Positions 26,536 to 42,459 of a DNA stretch of 64,000 bases are shown piece by piece. The translations under genes were made by a program, and so were the position numbers. Source of the DNA: Duganella sp. BuS-21 (GTDB lineage: Bacteria; Pseudomonadota; Gammaproteobacteria; Burkholderiales; Burkholderiaceae_D); contig CP097466.1 of assembly GCA_041874725.1 (NCBI GenBank), positions 124,001 through 188,000 on the forward strand, read 5' to 3'. The stretch's first letter is position 1, and the number at the start of each line of letters is the position of its first letter. The notes under the pieces are model-generated. The model was not told where the DNA came from and searched no databases. It saw only the letters and a program-made list of their open reading frames with translations.

Positions 26536-28701
26536 CTAAGCCTTCTTCAGCAGCTCCGCGCGCAGCGGCAGTTCGCGCACGCGCACGCCGGTGGCGGCGA
26601 ACACCGCATTGGTCAGCGCCGCGCCGACACCGGCTGTTCCCGGCTCGCCGATGCCGCCGGGCGCCTCGCTGCTGCGCACCAGCTCCACATCGATCTTCGG
26701 CGCCTGGCTCATGCGCAGGATCGGGTAGTCGTGGAAATTGCTTTGCTCCACGCGGCCGTCCTTCACCGTGATGGCGCCGAACAGGCCGGCCGTCAGGCCG
26801 TAGTTGATGCCGCTCTGGATCTGCGCCACCACCGTGTCCGGATTGACCACCTGGCCGCAATCGACCGCGCACACCACGCGCTTGACGGCCACTTCGCCGT
26901 CATCGCCGACCGTGACATCGACCACCTGCGCCAGGTAGGTACCCCAGGCGCGCATCAGGGCGATGCCGCGTCCACTGCGCGCCGGCAGCGGCTCGCCCCA
27001 GCCGGCCTTCTGCGCCGCCAGTTTCAGCACATGCGCCGCGCGCGGCTCCTTGCCCAGCAGCGCCAGACGGTAGGCCAGCGGGTCCTGCCCGGCCTTGAGC
27101 GCCAGTTCGTCCATGAAGCTTTCCAGCACCGTCATGTTGCGGGTGGGGCCGACGCCGCGCCAGAAGGCGGTCGGCACCGGGCCGTCCTCCTGGGTGTACT
27201 CGCTGCGCATGTTGGGGATATCGTAGGAGAAGATATCCGAACCTTCAACGTTGTCGATATCGAGACCGTCCTTGAGCCAGCCCGGCGCAAACGCCGCCAG
27301 GTTGGACGGCCCGGCGATCTTGTGCGAGAACGCCACCGGCTTGCCGGCCGCGTCGAGCGAGGCCGATACCGTATGCGCGTACAGACCACGGAACAGGCAA
27401 TGCTGGATGTCTTCCTCGCGGCTCCACACCAGCTTGACCGGCGCCTTGACCTGCTTGGCCACCTGTGCCGCCTGCACCACATAGTCCGTGTACAGCCTGC
27501 GACCGAAGCCGCCGCCGATCAAATGGTTGTGCAGCGTGACCTTCTCCGGCGCCAGGCCCAGCGCCTTGGCCGCGTCGTCGCGCGCGCGCGCCGGCACTTG
27601 CGAGCCGGTCCAGATTTCGGCCGTGCCGTCGCCTTTCACATGCACCGTGCAGTTCATCGGCTCCATGGTGGCGTGGGCCAGCATGGGATTGATGTACAGC
27701 GCCTCGACACGCTTGCCGTCGGCGGCCAGCGCCTTCAAGGCGTCGCCGTCGTTGCGGGCCACGTGACCAGGCTTTTGCAGCGCCGCCACCATGGTCTTGC
27801 GCACGTCGTCGGTGGAGAGTTTGGCGTTGGCGCCGTCGTCCCATTTGATGTCGAGCGCGGCCAGGCCCTGCTTGGCGTACCAGTAGTTATCAGCCACCAC
27901 GGCCACCGCGTTATCGAGCTTGACGATCTGGCGCACGCCGCGCAGCTTGCGCGCCTTGGCGTCGTTGACCGATTTGAGCTTGCCGCCGAGGACCGGGCTG
28001 GCCGCCACCACCGCTACCTTCATGCCTTTGACCTGGGCATCGATGCCGAATTGCGCCGTGCCGTCGGTTTTTCCCTTAGCGTCCAGGCGCTTGAGCGGCT
28101 TGCCGATCAACTTGAAATCTTTCGCGTCCTTGAGCGCCACTTTCTGTGGCGCCGGCAGCTTGGACGCGGCGGCCGCCAGCTTGCCGTACTTGAGGCGACG
28201 GCCGCTGGCCGGATGCAGCACCTCGCCGTGTTCGGCGCGGCAGCTGTCCGGCGCCACCTGCCATTCGTTGGCGGCGGCCTGGATCAACACCATGCGCGCG
28301 GCGGCGCCGGTCTGGCGCATCGGCTCGAACATGGTGCGGATGGTCAGCGAACCGCCGGTGAACTGGTCGCCAAACGGCGCGCCGTAGACCTTGGCGTCCG
28401 CTGGCGCATGGCGCAGCTGGATCTTGTCCATGTCCACTTCCAGCTCTTCTGCGATCAGCATCGGGATCGAGGTGTAGGTGCCCTGGCCCATTTCGACCTT
28501 GGGCATGGTGAGCACGATGCTGTCATCGGCGCCGATGGCGATGAAGGCGTTCAGGTCGGACGGTGCGGTGACGGCGGTGGCAGCCGCCTCGCCGGTACCA
28601 GGCCAGAAGCCGACCATCAAGCCACCGCCGGCTGCGGCAGCCACTTTCAGGAAACTGCGGCGCGACACGGCGCCCGGAGCGTAAGGGGTATCCATGCTCA
28701 T
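26536..28701 (-). CDS. Xanthine dehydrogenase-family molybdopterin subunit (IorB-like), Tat-exported
   Basis: 721 residues. The N-terminus has a twin-arginine signal ([15 protein letters not shown], about 13-27), placing the enzyme in the periplasm. The protein is of the one-chain IorB/aldehyde-dehydrogenase type of the xanthine oxidase family: [15 protein letters not shown] is the conserved Q-loop, [20 protein letters not shown] and [14 protein letters not shown] are cofactor-binding segments, and [11 protein letters not shown] near the end carries the active-site Glu. Its ATG overlaps the stop of the 2Fe-2S subunit gene. Substrate unknown; relatives oxidise aldehydes or N-heterocycles and pass electrons to a c-type cytochrome, which is not visible here. 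Confidence 0.9.
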
Positions 28702-29168
28702 GCTCCTTTCAGCACTGGCGAGGCGGCGGCATCCTTGATCGCCTCGCGGATGCGGCTATAGGTGCCGCAGCGGCAGATATTGCCGGCCATGGCATCGTCG
28801 ATCTCGGCGTCGGTCGGCTTCTGGTTCTTGGCCAGCAGCGCGGCGGCCGACATGATCTGGCCGGATTGACAGTAGCCGCACTGCACCACCTCCACCTTCA
28901 GCCAGGCGGCCTGGGTCGCCTTGCCGGCCGGCGTGGCGCCGATGCCCTCGATGGTGGTGATCTTCTTGCCCGCCACCGCCGAGACCGGCAACACGCACGA
29001 GCGCGTGGCTTCGCCGTCGACGTGCACGGTGCAGGCGCCGCACAGCGCCATGCCGCAGCCGAACTTGGTGCCGGTCATGTGCGCCTCGTCGCGCAGCACC
29101 CACAGCAGGGGCATATCGCCCGGTACGTCGAACTGGCGCGGCTTTCCATTGATGGTGAGCTTGATCAT
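28698..29168 (-). CDS. 2Fe-2S subunit of molybdenum hydroxylase (IorA-like)
   Basis: 156 residues from ATG 29168 with GGAGACCG upstream; upstream residues of the longer frame are not family-like. Plant-type ferredoxin cluster ([17 protein letters not shown] ... C) and the C-terminal 2Fe-2S helical domain ([21 protein letters not shown]) are both complete. No signal peptide, as usual: it is co-exported with the Tat-signal-bearing large subunit. First gene of the pair. Confidence 0.93.
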
Positions 29169-29406
29169 GAGCGGTCTCCGTGGACAAAACGCCACTATAG
29201 CCACATATGTACGCTTCATGACACTAGCCAATGTGGATACAGAAACAACTGATAGTTGCAAATCCTCCATAGTCGTTAAGCAATACCAATTTGGCATAGC
29301 AGCATAATATTTTCGTCTGGAAGCGCTGCCATGCGATTTAGGTCACCGGGCTGTCATATGCGCTCCTTACCCTGTGGCCTTTTTCCAACTGACCACGGAC
29401 CCTGAC

Positions 29407-31356
29407 ATGCATCTTCTTCCCGCCCGCCCCCTGATGATGGCCCTGAGCATAGCCCTGGCGCTGAGCGCCTGCGGCGGCTCCAACTCCGAAGCACCGCTGA
29501 TGATCCCGGCGGCGCCGGCCGATCAGGGCGCGGCGGAAGCCGTGGCCGTGCCATCGGCTACCGCCTTCGTCGACACCGTCGCCACCAACCAGCGCGGCGA
29601 CGCCCGCTACGCCACCCTGAACACCAATGCCGCCGTGCGCATCCTGGGCGGCTTCCTCAACGTCTGGAAGCCGCTGACCGAGATCGTCGACGCCGGCGTG
29701 ACGGCGCCGGCGGTGGACGGCTTCCCGGCCGTGGTGGCTTCGACCTGGACCGGCGTGCCCGGCGACGGCACGCCGGACGGCAAGGTGGTCAACGCCGCTG
29801 TGCACCAGGCCAATATCGACTACGTGGTCAAGGCCACCACCGGCCGCAGCGCCGAGCAGGCCGTGCAAGCCTACCTGGACGACCGTCGCGGCAAAGGCTA
29901 CAGCGTGACCGAAGGCCTGGGCCCGCTGACCGCCGCCTGGCGCGCCGCCGCCCAGCAGACCACCAGCATCAACAGCGTGGCGGCCGACGCCACCAGCGTG
30001 CTGTACAACGACAGCGGCAACAACACCGGCGTCGGTGGCAGCGCCAACGCCAGCTTCGGCAGCGTGGTCGACCTGGTCAACCTGGTCGGCAACAACGCCT
30101 CCACCGAGCCGGCCAAGCGCTTCTACAAATACGCGCGTCCCTACCGCTGGAGCAGCAGCGTGGTGGTGCTGCCGACCCTGGTGCCGGCCAAGAGCAGCAC
30201 GCCGGCCACCGACGGCGGCTTCACCAGCGGCCACTCGGCCGAAGCCACGCGCGACGCCGTCGCCATGGCCTACGCGCTGCCGGAACGCTTCCAGGAAATC
30301 CTCAGCCGTGGCCTGGAACTGGGCGAATCGCGCATCCTGGCGGGCATGCACTCGCCGCTGGACGTTCTGAGCGGCCGCATCCTCGGCCAGGCCAGCGCGG
30401 CCGCCAACCTGGCCGATCCGGCCAACGCCGCCAAGAAGGCCGCCGCCGTCACGCAGGCGCACACGGCGCTGATGGCCGCCACCGGCACCACCGCCGCCAA
30501 CTTCGCCGCCTACGCCCAATCGGGCACGGCGGCCAACGACCGCTTCGCCAATTACGCGACCAACAAGGCTAACTACCTGCGCCGCAGCACCTACGGCTTC
30601 GCGCCGATCGCCGCCACCACCGCAGCTGCCGCCGTGCCGAAGGGCGCCGAAGTGCTGCTGGAAACGCGCCAGCCTTACCTGAGCGATGCGCAGCGTCGCG
30701 TGGTGCTGAAAACCACCGCGCTGGCCTCGGGCTATCCGGTGATGGACGATCCTGAAGGCTGGGGCCGCCTGAACCTGTTCGCGGCGGCCGACGGCTACGG
30801 CGCCTTCAGCGGCAACGTCGCCATCGTAATGGATGCGGCCAAGGGCGGCTTCCACGCCTTCGACCGCTGGCGCAACGACATCGGCGGTGCGGGCAAGCTG
30901 GTCAAGCAAGGCACGGGCACGCTGGCCCTGGCCGGCGCCAACAGCTGGACCGGCGGCACCGAGCTGACCGCCGGCACGCTGCAGGCCGACTCGGTGGCCG
31001 CCTTGGGTGGTGGCGACGTGTATGTGAGCGGCGGCACGCTGGTGGCCAACGCACCGTCGGCGCTGAAACTCGGCGCGCGCTACACCCAGCTGAGCGGCAG
31101 CACCACGCTGGAACTGGACCTTGGCGGCGCGGCGGCGGGCAGCGCCGGCAGCCTGACGGTGAGCGGCATGGCCACCATCGGCGGCGGCACGCTGCGCATC
31201 AAGTTCGTCAACGGCTACAAGCCGAAAGCGGGCGAGGTGCTGACCGTGATCACAGCCGGTGGCCTGCAGGGCAAGTTCAACACCATCACGGTAGACGGCT
31301 TCAGCAACGTGACGCCGACCTACAGCGGCACCACGCTGACGCTGACCATCGGCTAG
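29407..31356 (+). CDS. Lipoprotein PAP2-type phosphatase/haloperoxidase with beta-strand repeat tail
   Basis: 649 residues from ATG 29407. Lipobox LSAC at about residues 16-19 predicts a lipoprotein. Residues ~200-330 carry the complete acid-phosphatase/vanadium-haloperoxidase signature: K-x6-RP as KRFYKYARP, then TSGH in GGFTSGHSAEA, then SR-x5-H-x3-D as SRILAGMHSPLD. The tail (~490-649) is an autotransporter-associated beta-strand repeat (GTGTLALAGANSWTGGTEL) but has no autotransporter barrel. So it is probably a periplasmic or surface phosphatase with a passenger-like stalk. The same architecture recurs in other Burkholderiales as far as I know. Substrate unknown. Confidence 0.82.
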   Translation: MHLLPARPLMMALSIALALSACGGSNSEAPLMIPAAPADQGAAEAVAVPSATAFVDTVATNQRGDARYATLNTNAAVRILGGFLNVWKPLTEIVDAGVTAPAVDGFPAVVASTWTGVPGDGTPDGKVVNAAVHQANIDYVVKATTGRSAEQAVQAYLDDRRGKGYSVTEGLGPLTAAWRAAAQQTTSINSVAADATSVLYNDSGNNTGVGGSANASFGSVVDLVNLVGNNASTEPAKRFYKYARPYRWSSSVVVLPTLVPAKSSTPATDGGFTSGHSAEATRDAVAMAYALPERFQEILSRGLELGESRILAGMHSPLDVLSGRILGQASAAANLADPANAAKKAAAVTQAHTALMAATGTTAANFAAYAQSGTAANDRFANYATNKANYLRRSTYGFAPIAATTAAAAVPKGAEVLLETRQPYLSDAQRRVVLKTTALASGYPVMDDPEGWGRLNLFAAADGYGAFSGNVAIVMDAAKGGFHAFDRWRNDIGGAGKLVKQGTGTLALAGANSWTGGTELTAGTLQADSVAALGGGDVYVSGGTLVANAPSALKLGARYTQLSGSTTLELDLGGAAAGSAGSLTVSGMATIGGGTLRIKFVNGYKPKAGEVLTVITAGGLQGKFNTITVDGFSNVTPTYSGTTLTLTIG

Positions 31357-31417
31357 GCGGACGCAAGCGCGTCGGCAAGATGTATGATGGAGGCATCGTC
31401 CACTTGCCGACCGCGCC

Positions 31418-31981
31418 ATGAATCAAGCTGAACTCGATCTCTTCAACGACAAGCTCGACGCCCACGCCAAAGAGGTGGAGCGCTTTCATGGGGAAGTGGC
31501 GAACGTCACGCGGCAGATCGCCAACTGCGACAAGCTGGTGCGGCTGGCGAATGCCGGCCTGAGCCAGATCGACGGCAAGATCGTCGAAGCGATCCGCATC
31601 AGCGCCGAAGCGCGGCAGATCGCCGACAGCGCCGGTGCGCAAGCGAGCGCGGCGGCCACCGCCGCCACCCAGGCCGCCGTCAACGACATGGTGCAGGCGC
31701 TGGGCGTAGCCACCGAATCGGCGCGCAAGACTGGCATGGCGCTCAACATCCTGCAATTTAAGACCGGCGCCTGGATCGCCATCTACACCGTACTGGTGTT
31801 GCTGTGCTGCCTGGCGACCGGCTTCATCACCAGCTGGGCCTTTCGCGGGAACGCCCTGACGCCGGAGCAAGCCCACTACATCGAACTCGGCAAAGCCCAT
31901 GAAGCCCTGCTAGCCAACGCCAGCGACAAAGAACTCAAACAACTCAACGCCATCCGCACCCGCGAACCCAAGACTAAATAA
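31418..31981 (+). CDS. Single-span coiled-coil membrane protein, unknown
   Basis: 187 residues. Residues 1-110 are charged and Ala-rich with heptad character (coiled coil). One membrane helix follows at about 127-148 (WIAIYTVLVLLCCLATGFI), then a short polar tail. There is no signal peptide and no family I recognise. It starts 61 bases after the phosphatase gene and ends 14 bases before the pentapeptide gene, so it could be transcribed with either. Confidence 0.6.
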   Translation: MNQAELDLFNDKLDAHAKEVERFHGEVANVTRQIANCDKLVRLANAGLSQIDGKIVEAIRISAEARQIADSAGAQASAAATAATQAAVNDMVQALGVATESARKTGMALNILQFKTGAWIAIYTVLVLLCCLATGFITSWAFRGNALTPEQAHYIELGKAHEALLANASDKELKQLNAIRTREPKTK

Positions 31982-31995
31982 GCAAGCAGACATTC

Positions 31996-32766
31996 ATGAA
32001 ATGGCCTGTCGTTATACTTATACTGTTTTCTGCGCTTGTCCTCACAATTACAGCAGGGTGGGACTTTGTTTCCGCGATCGTGTTTCCGAATACCACAGTG
32101 GGCCTGTATTCAAAAGACTTTTTCGAAAACGTATTGGTAGAAGCACACGGGATGATTTTAGATATCGCTGTGCTAGGCGTTGTATTGCTCTGGTTCGAAA
32201 AGCGCGGAGCGACCGTTCAGTTGGTCGCACAAAACAAGAAAGCCATTGCATATCTAAAGTTTTACCGCGGCGTGGATGCCTCGTTCCGGGTGTATGAGGC
32301 GGTGCGGAACCTACAGGAACTAAAATGTAAAACCATCGCTCTGCCCAACGCCAATCTGACCGATCTTCAAATTCAAGAGTTAAACCTGGAAAAGGCGAAT
32401 CTGCAAAACTGTAATTTCTCAAGATCGACTCTGGAGAAGTGCGAGTTTGTCGATTGCGAGGCAGACGCAGCATTGTTCATTGACGCCAAGCTAAAACAGA
32501 CCAAGTTCGTTCGCACCAAGCTGCGGCGGGCAAAATTCGTCAATGCAAAACTGAATGGTTGCGACTTCACCAGTGCCGAAATCACGAATGCTGATTTCAC
32601 CAAAGCTGACCTGCGAAGTGCAATCTTCAAAGGAGTTGACTGCAGAGGTATTCACTTTGATCACGCGGATTTAACAGCAGCCAACTTCATTGGCGCTTTA
32701 AATCTGACGCAGCAGCAGAGGGATAGTGCCGAGTCCTGTAAAAACGCTAAATTCGGACAGGGATAA
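31996..32766 (+). CDS. Pentapeptide-repeat membrane protein
   Basis: 256 residues. Two N-terminal membrane helices (about 5-27 and 50-68), a linker, then from about residue 110 a run of A(N/D)Lxx-type pentapeptides (ANLTD, ANLQN, AKFVN, ADFTK, ADLRS, ADLTA) predicting a right-handed quadrilateral beta-helix in the cytoplasm. Codon use is clearly AT-richer than that of neighbours (aaa, gat, ttc/ttt mixed), suggesting transfer. Function is not deducible; pentapeptide domains often bind proteins or mimic DNA. Confidence 0.78.
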   Translation: MKWPVVILILFSALVLTITAGWDFVSAIVFPNTTVGLYSKDFFENVLVEAHGMILDIAVLGVVLLWFEKRGATVQLVAQNKKAIAYLKFYRGVDASFRVYEAVRNLQELKCKTIALPNANLTDLQIQELNLEKANLQNCNFSRSTLEKCEFVDCEADAALFIDAKLKQTKFVRTKLRRAKFVNAKLNGCDFTSAEITNADFTKADLRSAIFKGVDCRGIHFDHADLTAANFIGALNLTQQQRDSAESCKNAKFGQG

Positions 32767-32777
32767 GGAGGATAAAG

Positions 32778-32860
32778 CGGAGGGGGAATCGAACGCCCCA
32801 TGCCGAGTTTCCCCGGTAGCACGCAGCCCGCTGAATTCCCAATCTACAGGATACCGCCGC
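32778..32860 (-). other. tRNA-like structured segment, probably not a working tRNA
   Basis: Read on the minus strand, this 83-base stretch ends in GTTCGATTCC, a perfect T-loop consensus, then CCCTCCGC. The last seven bases CCTCCGC pair with GCGGCGG at its 5' end with one mismatch. A hairpin CCGGG-GAAA-CTCGG lies where a long variable arm would be. The D arm and anticodon loop do not fit (no U before the best anticodon position, no GG in the D loop) and no CCA is encoded. It may be a degenerate class-II tRNA or another structured RNA. Confidence 0.3.
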
Positions 32861-32869
32861 ATGGGTCAA

Positions 32870-32914
32870 CCGGGTCAGGTTGAGGCCGCGTCGCATGGCC
32901 CCACCTGATCCCGA
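32870..32914 (-). terminator. Hairpin directly downstream of the cysteine desulfurase gene
   Basis: CGGGTCAGGTTGAGGCC pairs with GGCCCCACCTGATCCCG with small bulges, around a 9-base loop. It begins four bases after the desulfurase stop. No U tract; it may terminate or stabilise the encapsulin operon mRNA. Confidence 0.5.
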
Positions 32915-32917
32915 CGT

Positions 32918-34939
32918 TTAGGTACGGCGCTGTGCGGCCAGCCGGCGGACCACGGTGACCAGGCGGTCGATTTCGTCGTAGGTGTTGTAGAACGCCAGCG
33001 ACGGCCGCACCGTGGTTTCGACGCCGAAGCGGCGCAGGATCGGTTGCGCGCAGTGGTGGCCCGTGCGCACGGCGATGCCTTCTTCGTTCAGCGCCTTGCC
33101 GACTTCTTCGGTGCTGTAGCCTTCCAGCACGAAGGACATCACGCTGGCCTTGTCCGCCGCCGTGCCGATCAGGCGCACGCCTTTGATTTCCTTCAGCTTC
33201 GCCGTCCCGTACACCAGCAGGTCGTGCTCGTAGCGCGCGATGTTTTCGATGCCGATGCGGTTGACGTAGTCGATCGCCGCGCCCAGGCCCACCGCGTCCG
33301 CGATGTTGCCGGTGCCCGCTTCAAACTTGTTGGGGATAGGCTGGAACACGGTTTTTTCGAACGTGACGTCGGCGATCATGTTGCCGCCGCCTTGCCATGG
33401 CGGCATGTCTTCCAGCACTTCGCGCTTGCCCCAGACGACGCCGATGCCGGTCGGGCCGAACACCTTGTGGCCGGAGAAGACGAAGAAGTCCGCCCCAAGC
33501 TCCTGCACGTCGATGCGCATGTGCGAGATCGATTGCGCGCCATCGACCAGCGCCTTGGCGCCGGCACGGTGCGCCAGTTCGACGATTTCCTTGATCGGCG
33601 TGACCGTGCCCAGCGCATTCGATACCTGCGTGACAGCCACCAGCTTGGTGCGGTCGTTGAGCAGCTTGCGGTATTCGTCGAGCAGGATCTGGCCGCTGTC
33701 ATCCACCGGGATCACGCGCAGCTTGGCGCCCTTGGCGGCGGCCAGCTGCTGCCAAGGCACGATGTTGGCGTGATGCTCCAGGTTGGAGACGATGATTTCG
33801 TCGCCTTCGCCGATGTGCTGAGCACCCCAGCTTTTCGCCACCAGGTTGATCGCCTCCGTAGTGCCGCGAACGAAGATGACTTCGTTGACGTCCGGCGCAT
33901 TGATGAAGCGCTTGACGCGTTCGCGCGCACCTTCGTAGGCGTCGGTGGCGCGCGCCGCCAGTTCGTGCGCGGCGCGGTGGATATTGGAGTTTTCGTGCTC
34001 GTAAAAGTAGGCGATGCGGTCAATCACCGCCTGCGGCTTGTGCGTCGTGGCGGCGTTGTCGAACCATACCAGCTGACGGCCGTTGACGCGCTCCTGCAAA
34101 ATCGGGAAGTCGCGCCGCACGGCGTGGACGTCAAACGGTGGATGGCGATCGCCGCCGGCCAGTGGCACCGTGCCATGCGGCTGCGGCTTGGCCGGCGTGA
34201 CGTAGCCGCTTGGCAGTACCACGGCATCTACAAAATAGTATTGCGGACGGTCGGAGGCCGATGGTGCGGCAGACGCACCGGGAGCGGACGGCGTGGCCGG
34301 CAAGCCGGTTGCCGGCGGTGCGCTCAGGTTGCGCGCTGCCGATACCGGCGCTGCGCCAGGGAACAGACTGGCTTCCGGTACCTGAAAGTCTGCGCCTGGC
34401 ACGCCGTTGCCCGGCTGGCCGTAACGCTCGCTCAGGAAATAATACGGCGATGCGCCGGCAGACGGCGTTGACGAACCAGCACCCGCCGCTTGCGGCACGC
34501 CCAGCACGGCGCCGCCGCTACGTGGTTCGTAGGCAGGCACGGCAGAGTAGATCTTATCCGGCACGCCATTGCCTGCCGGTGCCACCGGCGCCAGGGCTGG
34601 CGCACGATTACCCAGCGACAGCACTTGCGTCGGCGAGGCCGGAATCAGGTTGGTGCCTGGCACCTGGCCTTGCGGAATCGGCGTTCCCGGCACGCCGGGA
34701 CCAAAGCCCGCCGGGCTCACCAGCGGCGAACCGGGCGGTGCGATGTTGCCGGGCGCCTGCACGCCGTGCACGCCCAGCGGCGTACTGAACGGCGCAGCAG
34801 GCGGCGTTGCCGGACCGAAGGCCGGCCCGGCGCCGGGCTTCGCGCTGAAGAACTCATTGGCCAACCGCGCCAGCGCAGCCGGATCGAACGGCGCGCCCTG
34901 CGGCTCTGCCTGCGGCAGCGAGGGAGATGGAAGGCTCAC
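32918..34939 (-). CDS. Encapsulated SufS-type cysteine desulfurase (cargo)
   Basis: 673 residues, GTG start with AAGGA upstream, 9 bases after the encapsulin stop. Residues ~268-673 are a complete group II (SufS-like) desulfurase: NLEHHANIVPW, PLP-Lys at about 492 in SGHKVFGPTG, and catalytic Cys about 630 in RTGHHCAQP. Residues 1-~265 are a Pro/Ala/Gly-rich, presumably disordered extension absent from housekeeping SufS. It holds spaced conserved-looking islands: FDPAALARLANEFFSA at 18-33, two NGVP motifs (124-127, 178-181) and two YYF motifs (166-168, 234-236). Such extensions load the enzyme into Family 2A encapsulins. It takes sulfur from cysteine; no SufE/SufU partner is nearby. Confidence 0.93.
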   Translation of the reverse strand: MSLPSPSLPQAEPQGAPFDPAALARLANEFFSAKPGAGPAFGPATPPAAPFSTPLGVHGVQAPGNIAPPGSPLVSPAGFGPGVPGTPIPQGQVPGTNLIPASPTQVLSLGNRAPALAPVAPAGNGVPDKIYSAVPAYEPRSGGAVLGVPQAAGAGSSTPSAGASPYYFLSERYGQPGNGVPGADFQVPEASLFPGAAPVSAARNLSAPPATGLPATPSAPGASAAPSASDRPQYYFVDAVVLPSGYVTPAKPQPHGTVPLAGGDRHPPFDVHAVRRDFPILQERVNGRQLVWFDNAATTHKPQAVIDRIAYFYEHENSNIHRAAHELAARATDAYEGARERVKRFINAPDVNEVIFVRGTTEAINLVAKSWGAQHIGEGDEIIVSNLEHHANIVPWQQLAAAKGAKLRVIPVDDSGQILLDEYRKLLNDRTKLVAVTQVSNALGTVTPIKEIVELAHRAGAKALVDGAQSISHMRIDVQELGADFFVFSGHKVFGPTGIGVVWGKREVLEDMPPWQGGGNMIADVTFEKTVFQPIPNKFEAGTGNIADAVGLGAAIDYVNRIGIENIARYEHDLLVYGTAKLKEIKGVRLIGTAADKASVMSFVLEGYSTEEVGKALNEEGIAVRTGHHCAQPILRRFGVETTVRPSLAFYNTYDEIDRLVTVVRRLAAQRRT

Positions 34940-34948
34940 GGCGCGTCC

Positions 34949-35881
34949 TTATTTGTAGGTATCTGGATAGTCGTGGTATTTGCCGATTTCAACGTCATCG
35001 AGCACCGCCAGCGCATCCGGGGTCAGCACCGCCAGCGAGCAGTACAGCGAAATCAGATACGACGAAATCGCATGGTTGTTGATGCCCATGAAGCGCACCG
35101 ACAGCCCAGGGCTTTGCTCACCCGGCAGGCCAGGCTGGAACAGGCCGACCACACCCTGGCGCTTGTCGCCCACGCGCAACAGGATGATCTTCGATTTGCC
35201 ATCGGCGACCGGTACTTTGTCCGAAGGGATCAGCGGAATACCGCGCCAGGTGATGAACTGCGAGCCGAACAGGCTGATGGTCGGCGGCGGCGTGCCGCGA
35301 CGCGTCGCTTCGCGGCCGAAGGCGGCAATCGCCAGCGGATGGGTCAGGAAGAAGGCCGGCTCTTTCCACACCTTGGTCAGCAGCTCGTCCAGGTCGTCCG
35401 GGGTCGGTGCGCCGGTCAGCGGGAAGATGCGTTGCTCATCGGTTACTTGCGCCAGCAGGCCGTAATCCGGGTTGTTGATCAGCTCGGATTCCTGGTTTTC
35501 CTTGATGGTCTCGATGGTCAGGCGCAGCTGTTCCTTGATCTGGTCGTGCGGGCTGCTGTACAGATCGGACACGCGGGTATGCACGTCGAGCACGGTGGAG
35601 ACGGCGTTGAGGAAATACTCGCGCGGATTTTCTTCGTAGTCGACATAGGTACGCGGCAGCTGGTTTTCTTCTTGGCGCGCGGTGCAGGTGACCTTGATCG
35701 ATTCCGGATTCTTCACCTTGTTCAAGCGATAGATACCGGCTTCCACCGGCACCCATTGCAGCAGGTGCGTCAACCAGCGCGGGCTGATGGTCGACAGCTG
35801 CGGAGCGGTCTTGGTTGCGTTTGCTAATTGCCGTGCGGCGTTATCGCCCAGCGCCGTGGTACCACCTACAGTTGCCGACAT
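34949..35881 (-). CDS. Family 2A encapsulin shell protein (SrpI-like)
   Basis: 310 residues, ATG with GGAG seven bases upstream. The sequence matches Family 2A encapsulins, HK97-fold proteins first named SrpI in cyanobacteria. Visible marks are the long N-terminal arm (ALGDNAARQLANATKTAPQL), the core PRTYVDYEENPREYFLNAVS, the LFGSQFITWRGIPLIPSDKV segment, and the E-loop/C-terminal part QGVVGLFQPGLPGEQSPGLS. No cNMP-binding insertion, so it is subfamily 2A rather than 2B. It should self-assemble into an icosahedral shell enclosing the desulfurase encoded next. In studied homologues the compartment stores elemental sulfur. Confidence 0.93.
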   Translation of the reverse strand: MSATVGGTTALGDNAARQLANATKTAPQLSTISPRWLTHLLQWVPVEAGIYRLNKVKNPESIKVTCTARQEENQLPRTYVDYEENPREYFLNAVSTVLDVHTRVSDLYSSPHDQIKEQLRLTIETIKENQESELINNPDYGLLAQVTDEQRIFPLTGAPTPDDLDELLTKVWKEPAFFLTHPLAIAAFGREATRRGTPPPTISLFGSQFITWRGIPLIPSDKVPVADGKSKIILLRVGDKRQGVVGLFQPGLPGEQSPGLSVRFMGINNHAISSYLISLYCSLAVLTPDALAVLDDVEIGKYHDYPDTYK

Positions 35882-35967
35882 CGTGACTCCGATCCAGATT
35901 GGTTAATATGAAAAACGAATAAGCTAGTTTGCGGTTTGCATAACGTTTACTCAACAGGCTATAGCCA

Positions 35968-36219
35968 TCAGCCGGGCGGGCGCTGCGCCTCACTGTGTGT
36001 GAGCAGCTCGGAAGGCGACAGCTGCAGCGCGGCCGCCAGCTTCTCCACGGTGAGCAGCGAGGCGATCACCACGCCGCGTTCGATCTCGCCGATGTAGGAG
36101 CGGTTCAGGTTGGAATTCTCGGCCAGCCGCTCCTGCGACCAGCCCTGCGCCTCGCGCAACTGGCGTACGCCGGCGCCGAAACTCCGCACCAGCGTGCTCG
36201 ACACACCGGCCGCGCTCAT
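35968..36219 (-). CDS. XRE-family DNA-binding regulator
   Basis: 83 residues, almost only a helix-turn-helix of the Cro/C1 type: VRQLREAQGWSQERLAENSN then LNRSYIGEIERG. The start overlaps the serine acetyltransferase stop (ATGA), and the encapsulin gene begins 86 bases after its end. Its place inside the operon suggests autoregulation of the sulfur compartment genes, possibly through that 86-bp gap; this is inference. Confidence 0.88.
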   Translation of the reverse strand: MSAAGVSSTLVRSFGAGVRQLREAQGWSQERLAENSNLNRSYIGEIERGVVIASLLTVEKLAAALQLSPSELLTHSEAQRPPG

Positions 36220-37139
36220 GACGCACCGATGCCGTTGGCGAACGCGCCCTCGCGCGACTCGGCCTGCGCCACGCGGCCGCCTGCCGGCACGTCGTGCGTG
36301 AGCCAGACATTGCCGCCGATGACAGCGCCCTTGCCCAGCGTGATGCGGCCGAGGATGGTGGCGCCGGCGTAGATCACCACGTCGTCCTCCACTACCGGAT
36401 GGCGCGGCCAGCCTTTTTGCAGATTGCCTTCGGCGTCGGTCGGGAAACGCTTGGCGCCCAGGGTGACGGCCTGATACACGCGCACGCGCTCGCCGATGAC
36501 GGCGGTCTCGCCGATCACCACGCCGGTGCCGTGGTCGATGAAGAAACCGGCGCCGATCTGCGCGCCGGGATGGATGTCGATGCCGGTGGCGCTATGCGCC
36601 AGCTCGGCCACGATGCGCGCCAGCAGCGGCAGGCCCAGCACGTACAGTTGATGCGCCAGGCGGTAATGAATCATGGCCAGCACGCCGGGATAGCACAGCA
36701 GCACCTCATCGACGCTGCGCGCGGCCGGATCGCCCTGGTAGGCGGCCAGCACGTCGCTGTCGAGCAGGCTGCGAATGCCTGGCAGCGCAGCGGCGAAACT
36801 GCGCACGGCCGCCAGCGCTTCTTCCTCGACCGGACGGCCGGCCTCGCCATGCAGGCCGGCGTTATAGGCCAGCTCGCGCTTCACCTGATGCAGCAGTGCG
36901 TGCAGCGAAGCATCGAGCGCGTGGGCGACATGGAAGTTTTCGCTTTCCTGGCGCAGGTCGGGCGGACCGAGGCGCATCGGGAACAGCACGCCCTTCAGGC
37001 AATCGAGGATGGAAGAGAGTGCGTCGCGCGACGGGAACTCGCGGTTGCCGGCTTCGCTGTTGCGGCTCTGCGTCAGGCGCCAGCTGTGACGCGCCTCGTG
37101 CAGCGCCTGTACCACGCCGGGGATGTCGAAGGTGGCCAT
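36216..37139 (-). CDS. Serine O-acetyltransferase (EpsC/SrpH type)
   Basis: 307 residues from ATG 37139 (AGGA nine bases upstream, 4-base gap after the rhodanese stop). Residues 1-190 are helical and longer than in short CysE forms. The C-terminal left-handed beta-helix has the serine acetyltransferase signature AHSATGIDIHPGAQIG, FFIDHGTGVVIGETAVIG and the acetyl-CoA loop ILGRITLGKGAVIGGNVWLT. It makes O-acetylserine, the acceptor for sulfide in cysteine synthesis. Homologues sit beside Family 2A encapsulins in other bacteria. Not necessarily feedback-regulated: the C-terminal tail is unlike that of CysE. Confidence 0.92.
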   Translation of the reverse strand: MATFDIPGVVQALHEARHSWRLTQSRNSEAGNREFPSRDALSSILDCLKGVLFPMRLGPPDLRQESENFHVAHALDASLHALLHQVKRELAYNAGLHGEAGRPVEEEALAAVRSFAAALPGIRSLLDSDVLAAYQGDPAARSVDEVLLCYPGVLAMIHYRLAHQLYVLGLPLLARIVAELAHSATGIDIHPGAQIGAGFFIDHGTGVVIGETAVIGERVRVYQAVTLGAKRFPTDAEGNLQKGWPRHPVVEDDVVIYAGATILGRITLGKGAVIGGNVWLTHDVPAGGRVAQAESREGAFANGIGAS

Positions 37140-37143
37140 GATG

Positions 37144-37608
37144 TCAGTCCTGTATCCAGGGCAGGCCATGGAAACGCCAGCCGTCGGCCTTGCCGCGCTG
37201 CTGGCCGGCGTCGATCTCGCCTTCAAAGCCTTCCAGCACGTTGAAGACATGGACCAGACCGGCCTTGGTCGCCGCCTCCGCCGCCAAGATGGAACGCTTG
37301 CCGCTGCGGCACAGCAGCAGGGCGATCGCCTCCTTGCCGCCGATCTTGGCTTCCAGCTCGCGGGCGAAGCGCGGATTGCGGGTCAGCGCGGTGCCGGTGG
37401 CCCAAGGCACATGAAGGCTGTTCGGCACGTGGCCGACGAATTTGCGCTCCTCGGCGGTGCGCACATCGACCAGCAGCGCCTGGCCGGTTGAAAACAACTC
37501 CCAAGCCAGCGCCGGCGGCACGCCACCCGCATACGGCAGGCCCGTGGACTCAGCGTGGGATTGAATTGCTGCCAGTTGTTCCGGCAGATCGAGAACGACT
37601 TCCGACAT
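37144..37608 (-). CDS. Rhodanese-like sulfurtransferase
   Basis: 154 residues, first gene of the sulfur operon. Single rhodanese domain with LLVDVRTAEER and the active-site loop LLLCRSGKRS, in which Cys100 would carry the persulfide. The loop length (CRSGKRS) is that of sulfur-specific members. No signal peptide. It could pass sulfur to or from the encapsulated desulfurase. Confidence 0.92.
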   Translation of the reverse strand: MSEVVLDLPEQLAAIQSHAESTGLPYAGGVPPALAWELFSTGQALLVDVRTAEERKFVGHVPNSLHVPWATGTALTRNPRFARELEAKIGGKEAIALLLCRSGKRSILAAEAATKAGLVHVFNVLEGFEGEIDAGQQRGKADGWRFHGLPWIQD

Positions 37609-37735
37609 GACTAACCTCTATGCGTTGATGGCGATAGACCACAGCATACGGTTGGTCAAAACGAAACAGAACGAATAAAAACAACTTCACAAAAGTGGAA
37701 AACGCATAACACCCCTTGCCTTGGTGTTCCTCCGG

Positions 37736-38215
37736 CTAGGACTGATCAAGTGGGCTGATCACCCCTTTTCCGCCTCGGTTCAGCACGTGCGTGTAGATCA
37801 TTGTCGTACTCAGGTCTTTGTGACCGAGAAGTTCCTGAACCGTTCGGATATCGTATCCCGCCTGTAGCAGGTGGGTGGCAAATGAGTGCCGCAAGGTATG
37901 CGGCGTGGCAGGCTTGGTGATACCGGCGTCGCGTGTGGCTTGTTTCATGGCGCGTTGAATCGCCTTTTCATCGGCGTGATGCCGGCGGAACGCACCGGAG
38001 CGCGGGTCGACTGAACGCCGCGTTGATGGAAAGGCATACTGCCAGCCCCATTCCCGGTTCGCCGTTGGATATTTTCGAGCGAGCGCGAACGGCAGCCAGG
38101 TATCGCCGAAGCCATCGGCAAGGTCTTGCTCGTGCAATTTCTTCACCCGTTCAAGATGCGAACATATCGGCGCCAATAGTGACTCCGGTAACATCGTGAT
38201 CCTCGTTGAACGCAC
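37736..38215 (-). pseudogene. intI: Integron integrase, C-terminal half only
   Basis: About 156 of the usual ~320-340 residues remain, from RITMLPESL to [15 protein letters not shown]. The integron-specific stretch [20 protein letters not shown] is intact, as are catalytic box II ([12 protein letters not shown]), GHKDLSTT and the nucleophile Tyr (TMIYTHV). The N-terminal DNA-binding domain and the first catalytic Arg are missing, so it cannot recombine. Homology stops at about 38204, exactly where a truncated cassette gene on the other strand begins, so the two were joined by deletion or recombination. Confidence 0.85.
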
Positions 38216-38327
38216 AAACGGTGAGCTTCGTGTTTTGGGTCCTCGGTATGAGGAGAGGCTAGCGCAAATCGAGAAAGAGCTTCCTGCTGCATGTATGCTT
38301 GCAAAACCGGAGAAGCCGCAATGGTAA
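38205..38327 (+). pseudogene. Truncated integron cassette gene (3' end only)
   Basis: Open frame on the plus strand reading [19 protein letters not shown] and ending KPEKPQW with TAA at 38325-38327, directly before an attC-type site. It has no start because it is fused to the broken integrase at about 38204. Forty codons remain; family not recognised. Confidence 0.5.
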
Positions 38328-38400
38328 GCTCTAACAAACTAATCAACCGGACTGCTTACGCGCTGCGCGCTTCAGCTGACTGTTATCGTACACGTTAGCC
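38328..38400 (+). other. attC recombination site (first)
   Basis: About 73 bases running from a TCTAAC-type R'' box (38330-38335, in gctctaacaaac) to the R' box GTTAGCC (38394-38400), with internal imperfect complementarity (gcgctgcgcgc in the centre). This layout and the box sequences are those of integron attC sites. The next cassette gene starts at 38402. Confidence 0.65.
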
Positions 38401-38401
38401 C

Positions 38402-38809
38402 ATGAAATCACGCTTCTTGCTACTCACGTTGACTTCGCTTGCTGTCAGCGCCCATGCTGGCCCGATCGACTATGTTGCTGCCTCAAACCGCTTTCTTTCG
38501 GAAGAACTTCCGAAGATGGAAGCTGCCGTGGCAGCAAAGGATCGACGCTACTTTACCTCCGGGCTGGAACGCATGAAGACCTTTGTAAATGATCATTGGG
38601 CTGATTTGGATAAGTTCCCGGCCTGTACAAATGCAATCACCGATTTCCTCATCGTGGGCCTATGTCGGATTTCGCAGCCAGGGACACTTTGCGAACCCGA
38701 GACGTTCTTTCCCAAATTTGAAGGCAATTTAGCGAATTGCCGAGCAGCCGCTAAGGCTGACCAAGGCAATCCAGCCGACGCTTCCGGCGCGGCTGAACTG
38801 AGACGTTAG
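38402..38809 (+). CDS. Integron cassette gene 1: exported protein, unknown
   Basis: 135 residues with a clear signal peptide (MKSRFLLLTLTSLAVSAHAG). The mature part has four or five Cys and no family I recognise. The last codons and the TAG stop lie inside the following attC site, as is usual for cassettes. Lower GC than the flanking genome. Confidence 0.6.
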   Translation: MKSRFLLLTLTSLAVSAHAGPIDYVAASNRFLSEELPKMEAAVAAKDRRYFTSGLERMKTFVNDHWADLDKFPACTNAITDFLIVGLCRISQPGTLCEPETFFPKFEGNLANCRAAAKADQGNPADASGAAELRR

Positions 38810-38811
38810 AT
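38748..38811 (+). other. attC recombination site (second)
   Basis: Closely resembles the classic ~60-bp attC: the inner part AGCCGACGCTTCCGGCGCGG followed by CTGAACTGAGAC and the R' box GTTAGAT (38805-38811). The left R'' box is degenerate (near 38748, CGCTAAG), so the left boundary is approximate. Confidence 0.65.
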
Positions 38812-38815
38812 TTCC

Positions 38816-39151
38816 ATGCGACTTGAACCCGTATCAAACGTCAAAAACAAGCGAACTACCGGTGAACGCTTGAGTAATGTCGTCGACGCGATACTTTCGT
38901 GGGATACCTTGCTTTGGCTTGGAGCTCTGATCGTTGGCCTGGGATTGGTGGGCTACGTAACAAGCACGTGGGTTTTATTTTTCGTCCACCACGGTAGTTA
39001 CGTTGCCGCTGGCTTCCTCACACTGGTGTCTTGTTCGCTTGGCATTCTGGCGATTCTCCGTGTGCCGGTAGCGCTTGTCTTAGTGTGGGCTGGAGCGGCC
39101 ATTTGTGCTACGGCTTTTCTTTCCGGTTATACCTATGTGCTCCTGCCCTAA
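38816..39151 (+). CDS. Integron cassette gene 2: small membrane protein, unknown
   Basis: 111 residues with three hydrophobic helices (about 34-54, 60-82 and 86-108) and no recognised family. The start lies five bases after the R' box of the second attC, the normal cassette position. The TAA stop is within the next R''-like box. Confidence 0.6.
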   Translation: MRLEPVSNVKNKRTTGERLSNVVDAILSWDTLLWLGALIVGLGLVGYVTSTWVLFFVHHGSYVAAGFLTLVSCSLGILAILRVPVALVLVWAGAAICATAFLSGYTYVLLP

Positions 39152-39200
39152 CCATTCATGTATTCAGACGCGCTAAAGCGCGCCAGTTATCAATTCGAAG
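39145..39200 (+). other. Degenerate attC-like site (third)
   Basis: GCCCTAACC (39145-39153) is a good R'' box and GCGCGCT-type palindromic DNA follows (39168-39184). No matching GTTAGGG-type R' box is found; instead a fragment of an unrelated gene begins. Probably the truncated end of the cassette array. Confidence 0.35.
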
Positions 39201-39204
39201 GTAA

Positions 39205-39321
39205 CCTAATGGAATGCGCATGCGGTTGTGGCGAGAAGCCTGTCGCGTGAGCGATCACTTGCCGGTGCAGATCGAGTTCGGCATCAAGGATAGTGATGCC
39301 AAACTCGACTCTCCACACTAA
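39205..39321 (+). pseudogene. C-terminal fragment of an endonuclease/exonuclease/phosphatase-family gene
   Basis: The frame reads MRLWREACRVSDHLPVQIEF and continues to a TAA at 39319-39321. The SDHLP motif is the C-terminal catalytic His motif of this metal-dependent phosphodiesterase family. Only about 38 codons are left after an in-frame stop at 39202. It marks the right border of the integron remnant and touches the stop of the convergent protease gene. Confidence 0.5.
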
Positions 39322-41438
39322 CGCTTGCTGATGGTCACTGGAATCACTGCACTGGCGCTGGCTCCTGTGCTGTCGGTGGCAGTCACTTTTAGCTGATAGC
39401 TGCCAGCCACCGGCGTGGCCCACGACACCACCACATTCATGCCACTGGCGGCGAACATCATGCCCAGCGGTGCGCCGGTGATGCTGATGTTCACCGTGCC
39501 GCTGTTGCTGATCTTGATACCGACGGTGCCGCTCAGCGCCTTGCCGACCACACCGGTCAACGCGGTGGCGGTAATCACCGGCGGCGTCGACGATGTCTTG
39601 GTGTTGGTCGTGCTGCTGCTGCCTGCCGCCGCGATCACCACGCTGTACACGCCCTGCCCGCTCAAGCCGTTGACGCTGTCCTTGGCGGTGACCGTCACGC
39701 TATACGTGCCGGCCACCGGCGCAGCCCAGCTCACCACGCCGGCGCTACTGATGCCCATGCCCGACGGTGCACCGGTCAGCGCATACGTGACCGCATTACT
39801 GGCCGTGACCGACGCCGTGAAGCTGAGCGCCGTGCCGGCCTTGCCGCTGATGGTGGCGGCCGTGACCACCGGCGCCGTCTGCACCGTCAGGCCAGATAGC
39901 GTCGACAGCAGCGCGCTGGCGTTCGGCGTACCGAGGCCGGTGGCCTGGTCGTAACCGGTTTCACCGCCGCATGCCGCGCACGTGCCGTGGCTGCCCTTGG
40001 TGATGTCGGCGAAGGTGCTGGCGTAGGTGCCGGCCACGGTGGCGACATTGGTGTACAGCGCGGCGTGCGGCGCGGCCAGCGCAGCCTTGCCGTTGACCGC
40101 ACGCAGCGCATTGGCGATGGCGATCAGGCCGGCCCACTGCGGTGTCGACAGGCTGGTGCCGCCGACGCTGGTCCATTTCACGGTGCTGCTACCGGAGGCG
40201 ATGACCGCCACGTACTGGCCGCTGTTCGGATCGGCGTTGAACGCCACGTCCGCCACCGTGCGGCGAGTGGCCGTGCCCATGCCGGGAACGACCGTGCTTT
40301 GGTAGGCTGGCGTCGCCACATATTGGCTGACGCCGCCGCCGGTGCTGGACCACACCACTTCGGAACGGGTGCCGCCGCTGTAGGTCAGCGTGGTGCCGCC
40401 CACCGCCAACACCTTGGCCGAGACCGACGGCCAGGCGACGCCGGCGCCGGAATCGCCGGTGGCGGCGAGGTAGGTCATGTTGGCGCCCGAGAACACGCTG
40501 TCGGCGGCGCTGGTGCCGCTGCTCTCGCTGCCGCCAAAGCTCATCGAAACGATGCCCGGTCCCATATTGTTGGCCAGGCGCACGCCGCCCAGCAGGTTGT
40601 CGTAACTGGCGCTGTTGGCTTCGATCAGCACGATGCGCGCCAGCGGCGCGGTGGCGTGCGCCCATTGGACGTCGAGCGCGATTTCGGTGGCCCAGCCGGC
40701 ATCGTAAGCGGGTGCGGTGCTGGTCATGCCGCCGGTCGAGGTGCTGTAGACGATAGCCAGTTCGCAGCCGGTGCCGGAGGCGGTGGCCAGCGGCAGGCTG
40801 GCGTTGCTGGCGATGGTCTTGGTGGTGCAGGCCGGCAGGCCGAACTTGGTGTTGAAGGCCGACAGTTCGGCCGCCACGTTGGGGTTGTGCTGGGCATCGA
40901 CGATGTAGATGGTCTGGCCGGCGCCGAGCTGGGCGGCCTGGGTTGCGCTCAGGCCGGTGTAGCTGGTTGGCAACGTCGGCAAGCCGTAGGCGGCGCGGAT
41001 CTGTGCCGGTGTGTAGGTCGCCACCGTGGTGGCGGTGGCCAACGGCGTGGCCGAGGACGTGTCGGTGTCCGCACTGAGACTGCGGTTGGCCTGCACCTGG
41101 CGCAGCGCGTCCACCGTTAGTCGGCGGGAATCGAGACGGCGGAACCCCGAGGGCACTGTTTGCGTATGGACCGTGGTTGGCGCGGCATCGCCAGCGGCGG
41201 CATCGGCCGGCGCGTCGAGCAGCAGCGGCGCCATGTGGAACGACGGCAGCGCGAACTGCTGCGCATCGTCTGCGGGCAAGGTGCCGTCGTCGAGTTGCAG
41301 AATGGTGGCGGCGGTCGCTAGCGGGGCGGCGGCTTGAACGGTATCGGAACTGCTGTCGCTGCTGCTACCGCAAGCGCTTAACAGCGCGGCGATGCAAGTG
41401 AGCGGCAGCGCCAGCAGGCAACGCGAAAATTGGGGCAT
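39318..41438 (-). CDS. Sedolisin-type (S53) serine-carboxyl protease, lipoprotein
   Basis: 706 residues from ATG 41438; an upstream in-frame Met lacks signal-peptide logic. Lipobox LLSAC at about residues 19-23. The catalytic set fits sedolisins: Glu and Asp in TEIALDVQW, the oxyanion Asp region ATGDSGAGVAWPS, and the nucleophile Ser in GGTSLSTPQWAG. The sedolisin TGLGTPNAS end motif is present. Two C-terminal Ig-like putative domains (~550-620 and ~635-706, each ending with a VSWAxPVAGxY pattern) could bind polymer or cell wall. Works outside the cytoplasm, probably at acid pH. Confidence 0.88.
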   Translation of the reverse strand: MPQFSRCLLALPLTCIAALLSACGSSSDSSSDTVQAAAPLATAATILQLDDGTLPADDAQQFALPSFHMAPLLLDAPADAAAGDAAPTTVHTQTVPSGFRRLDSRRLTVDALRQVQANRSLSADTDTSSATPLATATTVATYTPAQIRAAYGLPTLPTSYTGLSATQAAQLGAGQTIYIVDAQHNPNVAAELSAFNTKFGLPACTTKTIASNASLPLATASGTGCELAIVYSTSTGGMTSTAPAYDAGWATEIALDVQWAHATAPLARIVLIEANSASYDNLLGGVRLANNMGPGIVSMSFGGSESSGTSAADSVFSGANMTYLAATGDSGAGVAWPSVSAKVLAVGGTTLTYSGGTRSEVVWSSTGGGVSQYVATPAYQSTVVPGMGTATRRTVADVAFNADPNSGQYVAVIASGSSTVKWTSVGGTSLSTPQWAGLIAIANALRAVNGKAALAAPHAALYTNVATVAGTYASTFADITKGSHGTCAACGGETGYDQATGLGTPNASALLSTLSGLTVQTAPVVTAATISGKAGTALSFTASVTASNAVTYALTGAPSGMGISSAGVVSWAAPVAGTYSVTVTAKDSVNGLSGQGVYSVVIAAAGSSSTTNTKTSSTPPVITATALTGVVGKALSGTVGIKISNSGTVNISITGAPLGMMFAASGMNVVVSWATPVAGSYQLKVTATDSTGASASAVIPVTISKR

Positions 41439-41559
41439 GGCGATCTCTCGGAGGCGGTGGGAGGGGATGAGAGATGCTAGCAAATTCCCTCTTGGAAATA
41501 TATTGGCAGCTCGCCAAGAGCAGCCGGAATCCGCGTAAATTCAGGTAAAGACTCCCAGC

Positions 41560-42459
41560 TCAGATGGCTGGAATCGTTTCGTTCAACAGAAAGTCGCGCA
41601 GCAGGCGGGCGCTGGGGCCGATGCGTTGGGAGTGGACCAGGAAAATTTCCAGCGGCGCGGTTTCCACTTCGGGCAGCACGCGCACCAGCTCGCCGGAGGC
41701 TAGCAACGCGCCGGCGTCGTAGGCTGGCAGGCGGGCGATGCCTTCGCCGGCCAGCACGAAGGCCAGGCGCGAAGCCGCGCTGTCGGTCGCCACGTCGCCT
41801 TTGACGGCGATCTGCATTTCCTTGCCGTCGACCCGCACCGTGGCCGCGCGCTGCGTGGGCGGATACAGCACCCAGCGATGCTGCGCCAGTTCAGCCGCCG
41901 TCAGCGGCGCGCGATAACGCCGCAGATAGGCCGGCGCCGCGCACAACATGGTCGGCTCGCGCACCAGGCGCCGCGCCACCAGCGATGAATCGGCCAACGG
42001 CCCGGCGCGCACCGCCAGCTCGATGCCGTGCTGGACCAGATCGACATTCGAATCGTTCATCGCCACATGCAAACGGATGGCCGGGTAACGGCGGCGGAAC
42101 TCCAGCAGCGCCGGCATGATGCGCTTGCTGCCGAAGTGGTGCGAGCAGGTGATGCGCACTTCGCCGCGCGGTTCTGCGCGCAGCAGCTCCATGCCACGAA
42201 TGCCGTCGTGCGCTTCGTCCAGCAGACGTTCGCAATGGACGCGGAAAGCCTCGCCGGCCGGCGTCAGGCTGAAGCTGCGCGTGCTGCGCTGGGCCAGTGG
42301 TACGCCCAGCTTGGCTTCCAGCGCACGGATGTGATGGCTGACCACGGCGCGCGTCAGGCCCAGCGAGCGTCCGGCTGCCGCGAAACTACCGGCGCGCACC
42401 ACCGTGGCAAACACCGCCATGGCGCGCAATTCGTCGAGGATAGGCGATGGATCGCTCAT
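41560..42459 (-). CDS. LysR-family transcriptional regulator
   Basis: 299 residues. N-terminal winged helix-turn-helix (FATVVRAGSFAAAGRSLGLT, VVSHHIRALEAKLGVPL, FSLTPAGEAF) and the C-terminal effector domain of the group that includes aldehyde- and quinone-responsive regulators. It is divergent from the DJ-1 protein gene at 42582 across 122 bp, the usual arrangement with its target. Confidence 0.92.
   Translation of the reverse strand: MSDPSPILDELRAMAVFATVVRAGSFAAAGRSLGLTRAVVSHHIRALEAKLGVPLAQRSTRSFSLTPAGEAFRVHCERLLDEAHDGIRGMELLRAEPRGEVRITCSHHFGSKRIMPALLEFRRRYPAIRLHVAMNDSNVDLVQHGIELAVRAGPLADSSLVARRLVREPTMLCAAPAYLRRYRAPLTAAELAQHRWVLYPPTQRAATVRVDGKEMQIAVKGDVATDSAASRLAFVLAGEGIARLPAYDAGALLASGELVRVLPEVETAPLEIFLVHSQRIGPSARLLRDFLLNETIPAI

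Follow-up and report, generated by a model that had tools for sequence, protein, structure and literature searches.

The encapsulin operon and its proteins

We analysed a 64,000-nucleotide stretch of the Duganella sp. BuS-21 genome (GenBank assembly GCA_041874725.1, contig CP097466.1, positions 124,001 to 188,000 of the forward strand; hereafter, the window). It carries on its minus strand a five-gene operon for a family 2A encapsulin, i.e., a protein shell with a cysteine desulfurase as its cargo, and within that operon lies the gene for a small XRE regulator. Judged from protein-family models, the compartment itself is of an already known kind. The new part, which comparison with related loci supports well, is the XRE regulator together with two mapped predicted operators, referred to below as operator A (upstream of the shell gene) and operator B (upstream of the rhodanese gene).

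In the direction of transcription, the operon begins with a rhodanese gene (37144..37608; 154 amino acids (aa); PF00581, 45.9 bits), followed by a serine O-acetyltransferase (SAT) gene of the EpsC type (36216..37139; NF041874) and by the xre gene (35968..36219; 83 aa), whose product was matched as a helix-turn-helix only (PF01381, 58.1 bits). The family 2A shell gene (34949..35881; 310 aa; NF041162, PF19307) comes next, and the operon closes with the gene for the family 2A cargo cysteine desulfurase (32918..34939; 673 aa; NF041166), which has a GTG start and encodes an N-terminal loading region of about 260 aa. The SAT start is an ATG of our choosing, giving 307 aa, and the open frame extends to 37250. 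A sequence-only reading of this DNA had described five genes on one strand with overlaps or tiny gaps. All five do lie on the minus strand at the places it gave, with a 4-base-pair (bp) gap between rhodanese and SAT, a 4-bp overlap of SAT and XRE, and 9 bp between shell and desulfurase. The description fails for the gap between XRE and shell, which measures 86 bp and holds most of the predicted shell promoter, and the left edge proposed for the operon, 32870, runs 48 bases past the last stop codon, the desulfurase gene ending at 32918.

The assignment of shell and cargo to family 2A, also made by the sequence-only reading, was borne out, both proteins exceeding the NCBI curated cut-offs: the shell scored 528.7 bits against NF041162 (cut-off 380) and the desulfurase 949.2 bits against NF041166 (cut-off 800). 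The shell also clears the family 2B model NF041163 (415.7 bits, cut-off 400), at a score below its 2A score. It was matched by PF19307 and by no further Pfam domain, and carries no cNMP domain. Its closest solved structure is 8t6r (562.3 bits), and SrpI (6x8m) was matched at 480.0 bits; for the catalytic part of the desulfurase, the closest solved structure is 8kg1. The desulfurase carries the loading motifs LARLANEFFS at residue 23 and SPYYFL at residue 164, with a second YYF stretch, QYYFVD, at residue 233. These cargo loading motifs were published for SrpI and CyD of Synechococcus elongatus (PMC8049743), a system with the same shell family and with a SufS-type cargo whose disordered N-terminal loading region contains LARLANEFFS and a YYFL motif. 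In the Duganella operon, the shell would likewise pack the SufS-type cysteine desulfurase through the desulfurase's N-terminal region. Relative to SrpI/CyD, for which the portions of that paper drawn on name no regulator, the Duganella locus adds the rhodanese, SAT, and XRE genes and the two predicted XRE-type operators.

The sequence-only reading had called all active-site residues present; the motifs found are CRSGKRS in the catalytic loop of the rhodanese, at residue 100, and SGHKVFG and TGHHCAQ in the desulfurase. Cys100 of the rhodanese and Lys492 and Cys630 of the desulfurase are presumably the catalytic residues, by analogy with SufS-type enzymes. The SAT passed the EpsC model NF041874 at 161.9 bits (cut-off 150) and scored 173.1 bits against the cysE model TIGR01172, under its cut-off of 210.65. 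In a survey of encapsulins, the accessory genes most enriched in family 2A desulfurase operons are serine O-acetyltransferase and rhodanese (PMC8346489), and here the rhodanese and the SAT are probably the sulfur-acceptor and cysteine-supply partners. The term XRE is absent from the main text of that survey, the portions drawn on name no dedicated regulator, and compared with its operons the internal regulator and the operators are the present addition. The sequence-only reading had further reported no SufE, SufU, or IscU partner nearby. That statement stands within the nine flanking open reading frames (ORFs; 28698-42459), and for SufE (PF02657) there was no match across the 6.49-Mb genome, the same model having matched in 5 of 14 control genomes; for IscU and SufU, the negative covers the flanking ORFs, without a genome-wide search. 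Storage of elemental sulfur by this compartment, like the part played by the rhodanese, may be expected from published work on homologues.

Two palindromes at the predicted promoters of the operon

For comparison, we used 81 loci, i.e., the window plus the 80 best of 591 genomic locations encoding shell relatives, and called XRE present where phmmer gave a domain score over 40. The sequence-only reading had proposed comparing gene order in other Burkholderiales, and the order it described recurs: an XRE gene lies between SAT and shell in 74 of the 81 loci, nearly all named records being Burkholderiales, and is missing from seven (L012, L041, L071, L072, L073, L078, and L079). A Variovorax plasmid record has the same five-gene order annotated, with a helix-turn-helix regulator as the third gene, and the operator is present there too. 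Outside the genus, the SAT gene precedes the shell gene in five class-level loci (L160-L164), and XRE is absent. The genus search found a shell over the cut-off in 23 of 74 genomes. In three loci (L071, L075, and L078), the rhodanese-SAT interval is 1027, 1071, and 1055 bp long, respectively, leaving room for another gene.

Upstream of the shell gene, a single stretch is strongly conserved, a palindrome close to TTGRTGGCTATAGCMTGTTGA that was found in 74/74 XRE-bearing loci. Its copy in the window is operator A, CTGATGGCTATAGCCTGTTGA (35951..35971, minus strand), a predicted site that takes in the final 4 bases of xre and overlaps the -35 box of the predicted shell promoter. When scored against the consensus TTGRTGKCTATAGCMTGTTGA, every one of the 74 XRE-bearing loci matches at no fewer than 16 of 21 positions, compared with 12-13 in the seven XRE-less loci and 11-13 in the five class-level loci without XRE (0/5 at 16 or above). 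Among resampled upstream regions, 3 of 972 scored at least 16. The resamplings used here, for operator B, and for the T-rich box described below are first-order Markov resamplings rather than exact dinucleotide shuffles.

The position of operator A relative to the xre stop codon varies among the 74 loci: it forms the last xre codons in 56, starts 4 bases before the stop in 11, and ends 28-107 bases past the stop in 7. In three further genus loci (L110, L125, and L126), where the called xre gene ends 211-346 bp short of the shell gene, operator A remains beside the shell gene. Where the site is in frame with xre, its isoleucine codon is ATA in 56 of 56 loci, compared with 58 of 3535 isoleucine codons in neighbouring genes. 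Because the position relative to the xre stop shifts while the DNA stays, and because ATA is fixed, selection on operator A appears to act at the level of the DNA.

Operator A ends in TTGA, which is -35-like, and a poor -10 comes 17-18 bp later. The predicted shell promoter of the window (35926..35954, minus strand) consists of the -35 TTGAGT (35949-35954), a 17-bp spacer, and the -10 CAAACT (35926-35931), and the start site, placed from the -10 only, would be at 35919. Across the 74 loci, the number with an nAnnnT hexamer after TTGANN is 0 at 15 bp, 0 at 16 bp, 59 at 17 bp, 16 at 18 bp, and 12 at 19 bp; at 17 bp, GACACT, CACACT, and CAAACT are the hexamers seen most often. Provided that the -35 box begins with TTGA, operator A would have its axis at about -42.5, in an activator position. 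An axis near -42.5 is the classic site for an activator that contacts polymerase at -35, and the poor -10 is consistent with an activator-dependent promoter.

A palindrome related to operator A precedes the rhodanese gene: TTGRTGKCTATMGCCAYCAA is matched at no fewer than 16 of 20 positions in 48 of the 72 XRE-bearing loci with a detected rhodanese and in 0 of 948 resampled regions. The copy in the window, operator B (CTGTGGTCTATCGCCATCAA; 37625..37644, minus strand), is a predicted site over the inferred rhodanese start, which the predicted -10, TATGCT (37643..37648, minus strand), and that element only, would place at 37636. The axis of operator B, at about +2.5 and covering this putative start, would suit a repressor. 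A TANNNT hexamer ending two bases inside operator B was found in 28 of the 46 loci with a plus-strand site. Control by the XRE protein through sites in both intergenic stretches, as the sequence-only reading had suggested, is well supported by these comparisons in a refined form, with two predicted promoters and with a shell operator that extends 4 bp into xre.

Used as a genome-wide pattern, operator A is a compact tag for this operon variant: all of its matches in the searched genomes lie at operons of this kind or at a remnant of one. A search with TGGCKATAGCMTGTTGA matched 22 of the 74 genus genomes, in a single copy each, and a reversed control pattern gave 0 matches. By genome class, it was found in 21/21 genomes with shell and XRE, in 0/2 with shell and without XRE (G045 and G053), and in 1/51 with no shell over the cut-off. 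The lone genome in the last class (G039) holds a decayed operon (L176 8221-9070) with rhodanese, SAT, xre, and operator intact, in which the shell gives no match and only the end of the desulfurase is left. No close XRE copy was found elsewhere in G045 or G053, where the best scores were 27.4 and 45.2 bits; the XRE protein of the window itself scores 162.3. At the order level, a search with GGCTATAGCMTGTTGA matched 8 of 399 genomes, the window's own among them, and all 8 matches lie between xre and shell genes. Many genus genomes overlap or resemble the loci used for motif discovery, which leaves the genus test less than fully independent; its added information is that operator A is nearly absent from the rest of those genomes. 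A fully symmetric operator form, allowing up to 3 mismatches, gave no match in the genome of BuS-21, the window's own sites included; given the asymmetry of operator A, this form was too strict.

The T-rich box and neighbouring sequence

Upstream of the rhodanese promoter lies a further conserved element, the T-rich box TTTTTATTCGTT (37670..37681, minus strand). Among XRE-bearing loci, 45 of 72 match its consensus, TTTTTATTCGTTTG, at 12 or more of 14 positions, as do 2 of the 7 loci without XRE (L012 and L073), compared with 4 of 790 resampled regions, and the box is conserved across families. As it is also kept in some loci that lack XRE, it probably belongs to another regulator. The exact 11-mer TTTTATTCGTT of the box occurs once in the genome and its reversed control twice, and a loose search of the genome, with 3 mismatches allowed, gave no signal (97 matches against 113 for the reversed control). 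We considered the box as a CysB site and looked at three stretches near PAPS-reductase-family and sulfate-binding-protein genes of the same genome, where no match exceeded 11/14 and the best one fell within a long open frame, a result that speaks neither for nor against CysB.

Directly upstream of the rhodanese promoter is the C-terminal half of an integron integrase (37736-38215, minus strand), which matches positions 160-314 of 315 of TIGR02249 at 249.3 bits and misses the cut-off of 265. The idea that the operon is part of an integron was set aside, as at least six genus loci (L116, L117, L118, L120, L122, and L124) align both outer flanks and not the stretch with the integrase remnant. On the other side, just past the desulfurase gene, lies a gene for a pentapeptide-repeat protein (31996-32766, plus strand), and 31967-32870 is unaligned in genus relatives with common outer flanks. 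Searches of the window with ARAGORN and Rfam detected no tRNAs or RNA families, weak matches around the operon being at chance level. A part of a tRNA at 32780-32860 was suggested by a resemblance by eye only and received no support from either program.

The XRE protein as a candidate controller-like switch

Among solved structures, the XRE protein is closest to two restriction-modification controller proteins, C.AhdI (6.1e-12) and C.BclI (6.7e-10). Two residues in its recognition-helix region, R40 and Y42, are invariant in all 80 aligned XRE homologues (74 from the 81-locus set and 6 from genus loci). Their presumed counterparts in C.Esp1396I are R35 and Y37, a match made through ungapped alignment ranges and an assumed tag length. 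Like C.AhdI, C.BclI, and C.Esp1396I, the XRE protein is about 80 aa long and consists of a helix-turn-helix only (PMC4041747, PMC3115060, PMC3758141). Dimers of C.Esp1396I are centred between the A and T of a central TATA, with the operator OL recruiting polymerase and OM, at the methyltransferase start, repressing (PMC4041747), and the operators of controller proteins are usually GACTtatAGTC with an outer TG...CA (PMC3115060; see also PMC3758141). The palindromes described here resemble these in being TATA-centred, in having an outer TG and CA, and in their predicted arrangement, with one site placed to activate and the other over a start site. They differ in the half-site, which is G(G/T)C here (boxes G(G/T)C/GCC) and GAC in the controller proteins (GAC/GTC), and in that the controlled genes here would be a nanocompartment. 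No restriction or methyltransferase domain was found in the nine flanking ORFs scanned. Among the matches listed in searches of the open-licence literature (CC0, CC BY, and CC BY-SA), none describes this regulator, and in the single paper that contains both encapsulin and XRE, encapsulin stands in the reference list only.

Taken together, these features point to the XRE protein as a dedicated controller-like switch that represses the rhodanese-SAT-xre unit and activates shell and cargo through the two palindromes, a reading to which we assign a probability of about two in three. A dimer of the 83-aa protein would read the two related TATA-centred palindromes, A and B. At operator B, over the inferred start, it would shut the rhodanese-SAT-xre unit. 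At operator A, abutting or overlapping the -35 before a weak -10, it would aid RNA polymerase and switch on shell and cargo. Shell and cargo would then rise only once XRE, co-made with rhodanese and SAT, crosses a threshold; the early acceptor and supply genes would be set apart from the late capsid genes, and capsid synthesis would depend on the level of XRE.

Several observations weigh against such a switch. The 81-locus set leans to close relatives, with shell identities of 87-99%, and the operator A consensus was derived from the same loci as the resampling test, which is therefore partly circular. Operator A doubles as xre coding sequence in 56 of 74 loci, so that loss of xre would delete operator A anyway, and in one genome (G059, locus L110) xre is broken across two frames with operator A intact, which may reflect either a sequencing error or loss of xre in nature. 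At the shell promoter, the 19-bp spacing after TTGANN also gives nAnnnT in 12 of 74 loci. Operator B falls below 16 in 24 of the 72 XRE-bearing loci; these misses include L008, where the rhodanese start is probably misassigned, and the Paraburkholderia-type loci L080-L084, which have an asymmetric operator A form at the rhodanese promoter. Conversely, operator B is kept in 2 of the 7 XRE-less loci (19/20 in L012 and 16/20 in L071), and the TANNNT -10 in the expected register is limited to the 28 of 46 loci given above. There is also a single operator per promoter here, unlike the tandem OL-OR pair of controller systems, and the flanks of operator A show little conservation past the -10 in the 74 loci. 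Lastly, XRE binding, dimerisation, start sites, the direction of regulation, timing, and sulfur chemistry are all predictions from the genes, families, sites, spacing, and co-occurrence observed in the DNA.

Operator A overlaps the -35 box, where a bound protein could simply block it, and most XRE regulators control their own genes and, as dimers, bind palindromic sites (PMC12565409). The XRE protein could accordingly act at both promoters as a plain repressor that a sulfur or redox signal would relieve. We consider this unlikely, as the axis near -42.5 and the poor -10 suit activation better, and as an 83-aa protein without a matched domain beyond the helix-turn-helix has no evident signal-sensing part. 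The retention of operator B in L012 and L071, both without the operon's xre, might instead suggest that another regulator, e.g., a global sulfur regulator, reads the palindromes with XRE as a passenger, which seems improbable given that operator A was found only at this operon or a remnant of it (22 genus and 8 order matches), unlike a global site, and is absent from the 7 and 5 XRE-less loci and from G045 and G053. That operator A is a conserved C-terminal peptide of XRE and not regulatory DNA would fit the 56 loci in which it ends the coding sequence and is hardly credible otherwise, since 18 of 74 loci have the same DNA wholly or mostly past the xre stop, the isoleucine codon is invariably the rare ATA, and a related palindrome stands at the other promoter.

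If the XRE protein acts as the controller-like switch proposed here, a regulator with two defined candidate operators would make the timing and balance of encapsulin shell and cargo building directly testable. A broader suggestion, which we offer tentatively and at somewhat less than even odds, is that a controller switch of the restriction-modification type was recruited in Burkholderiales to time a nanocompartment, with production of the sulfur acceptor and the cysteine supply preceding closure of the capsid around the desulfurase. If true, this would mean that controller-protein-like logic exists outside restriction-modification.

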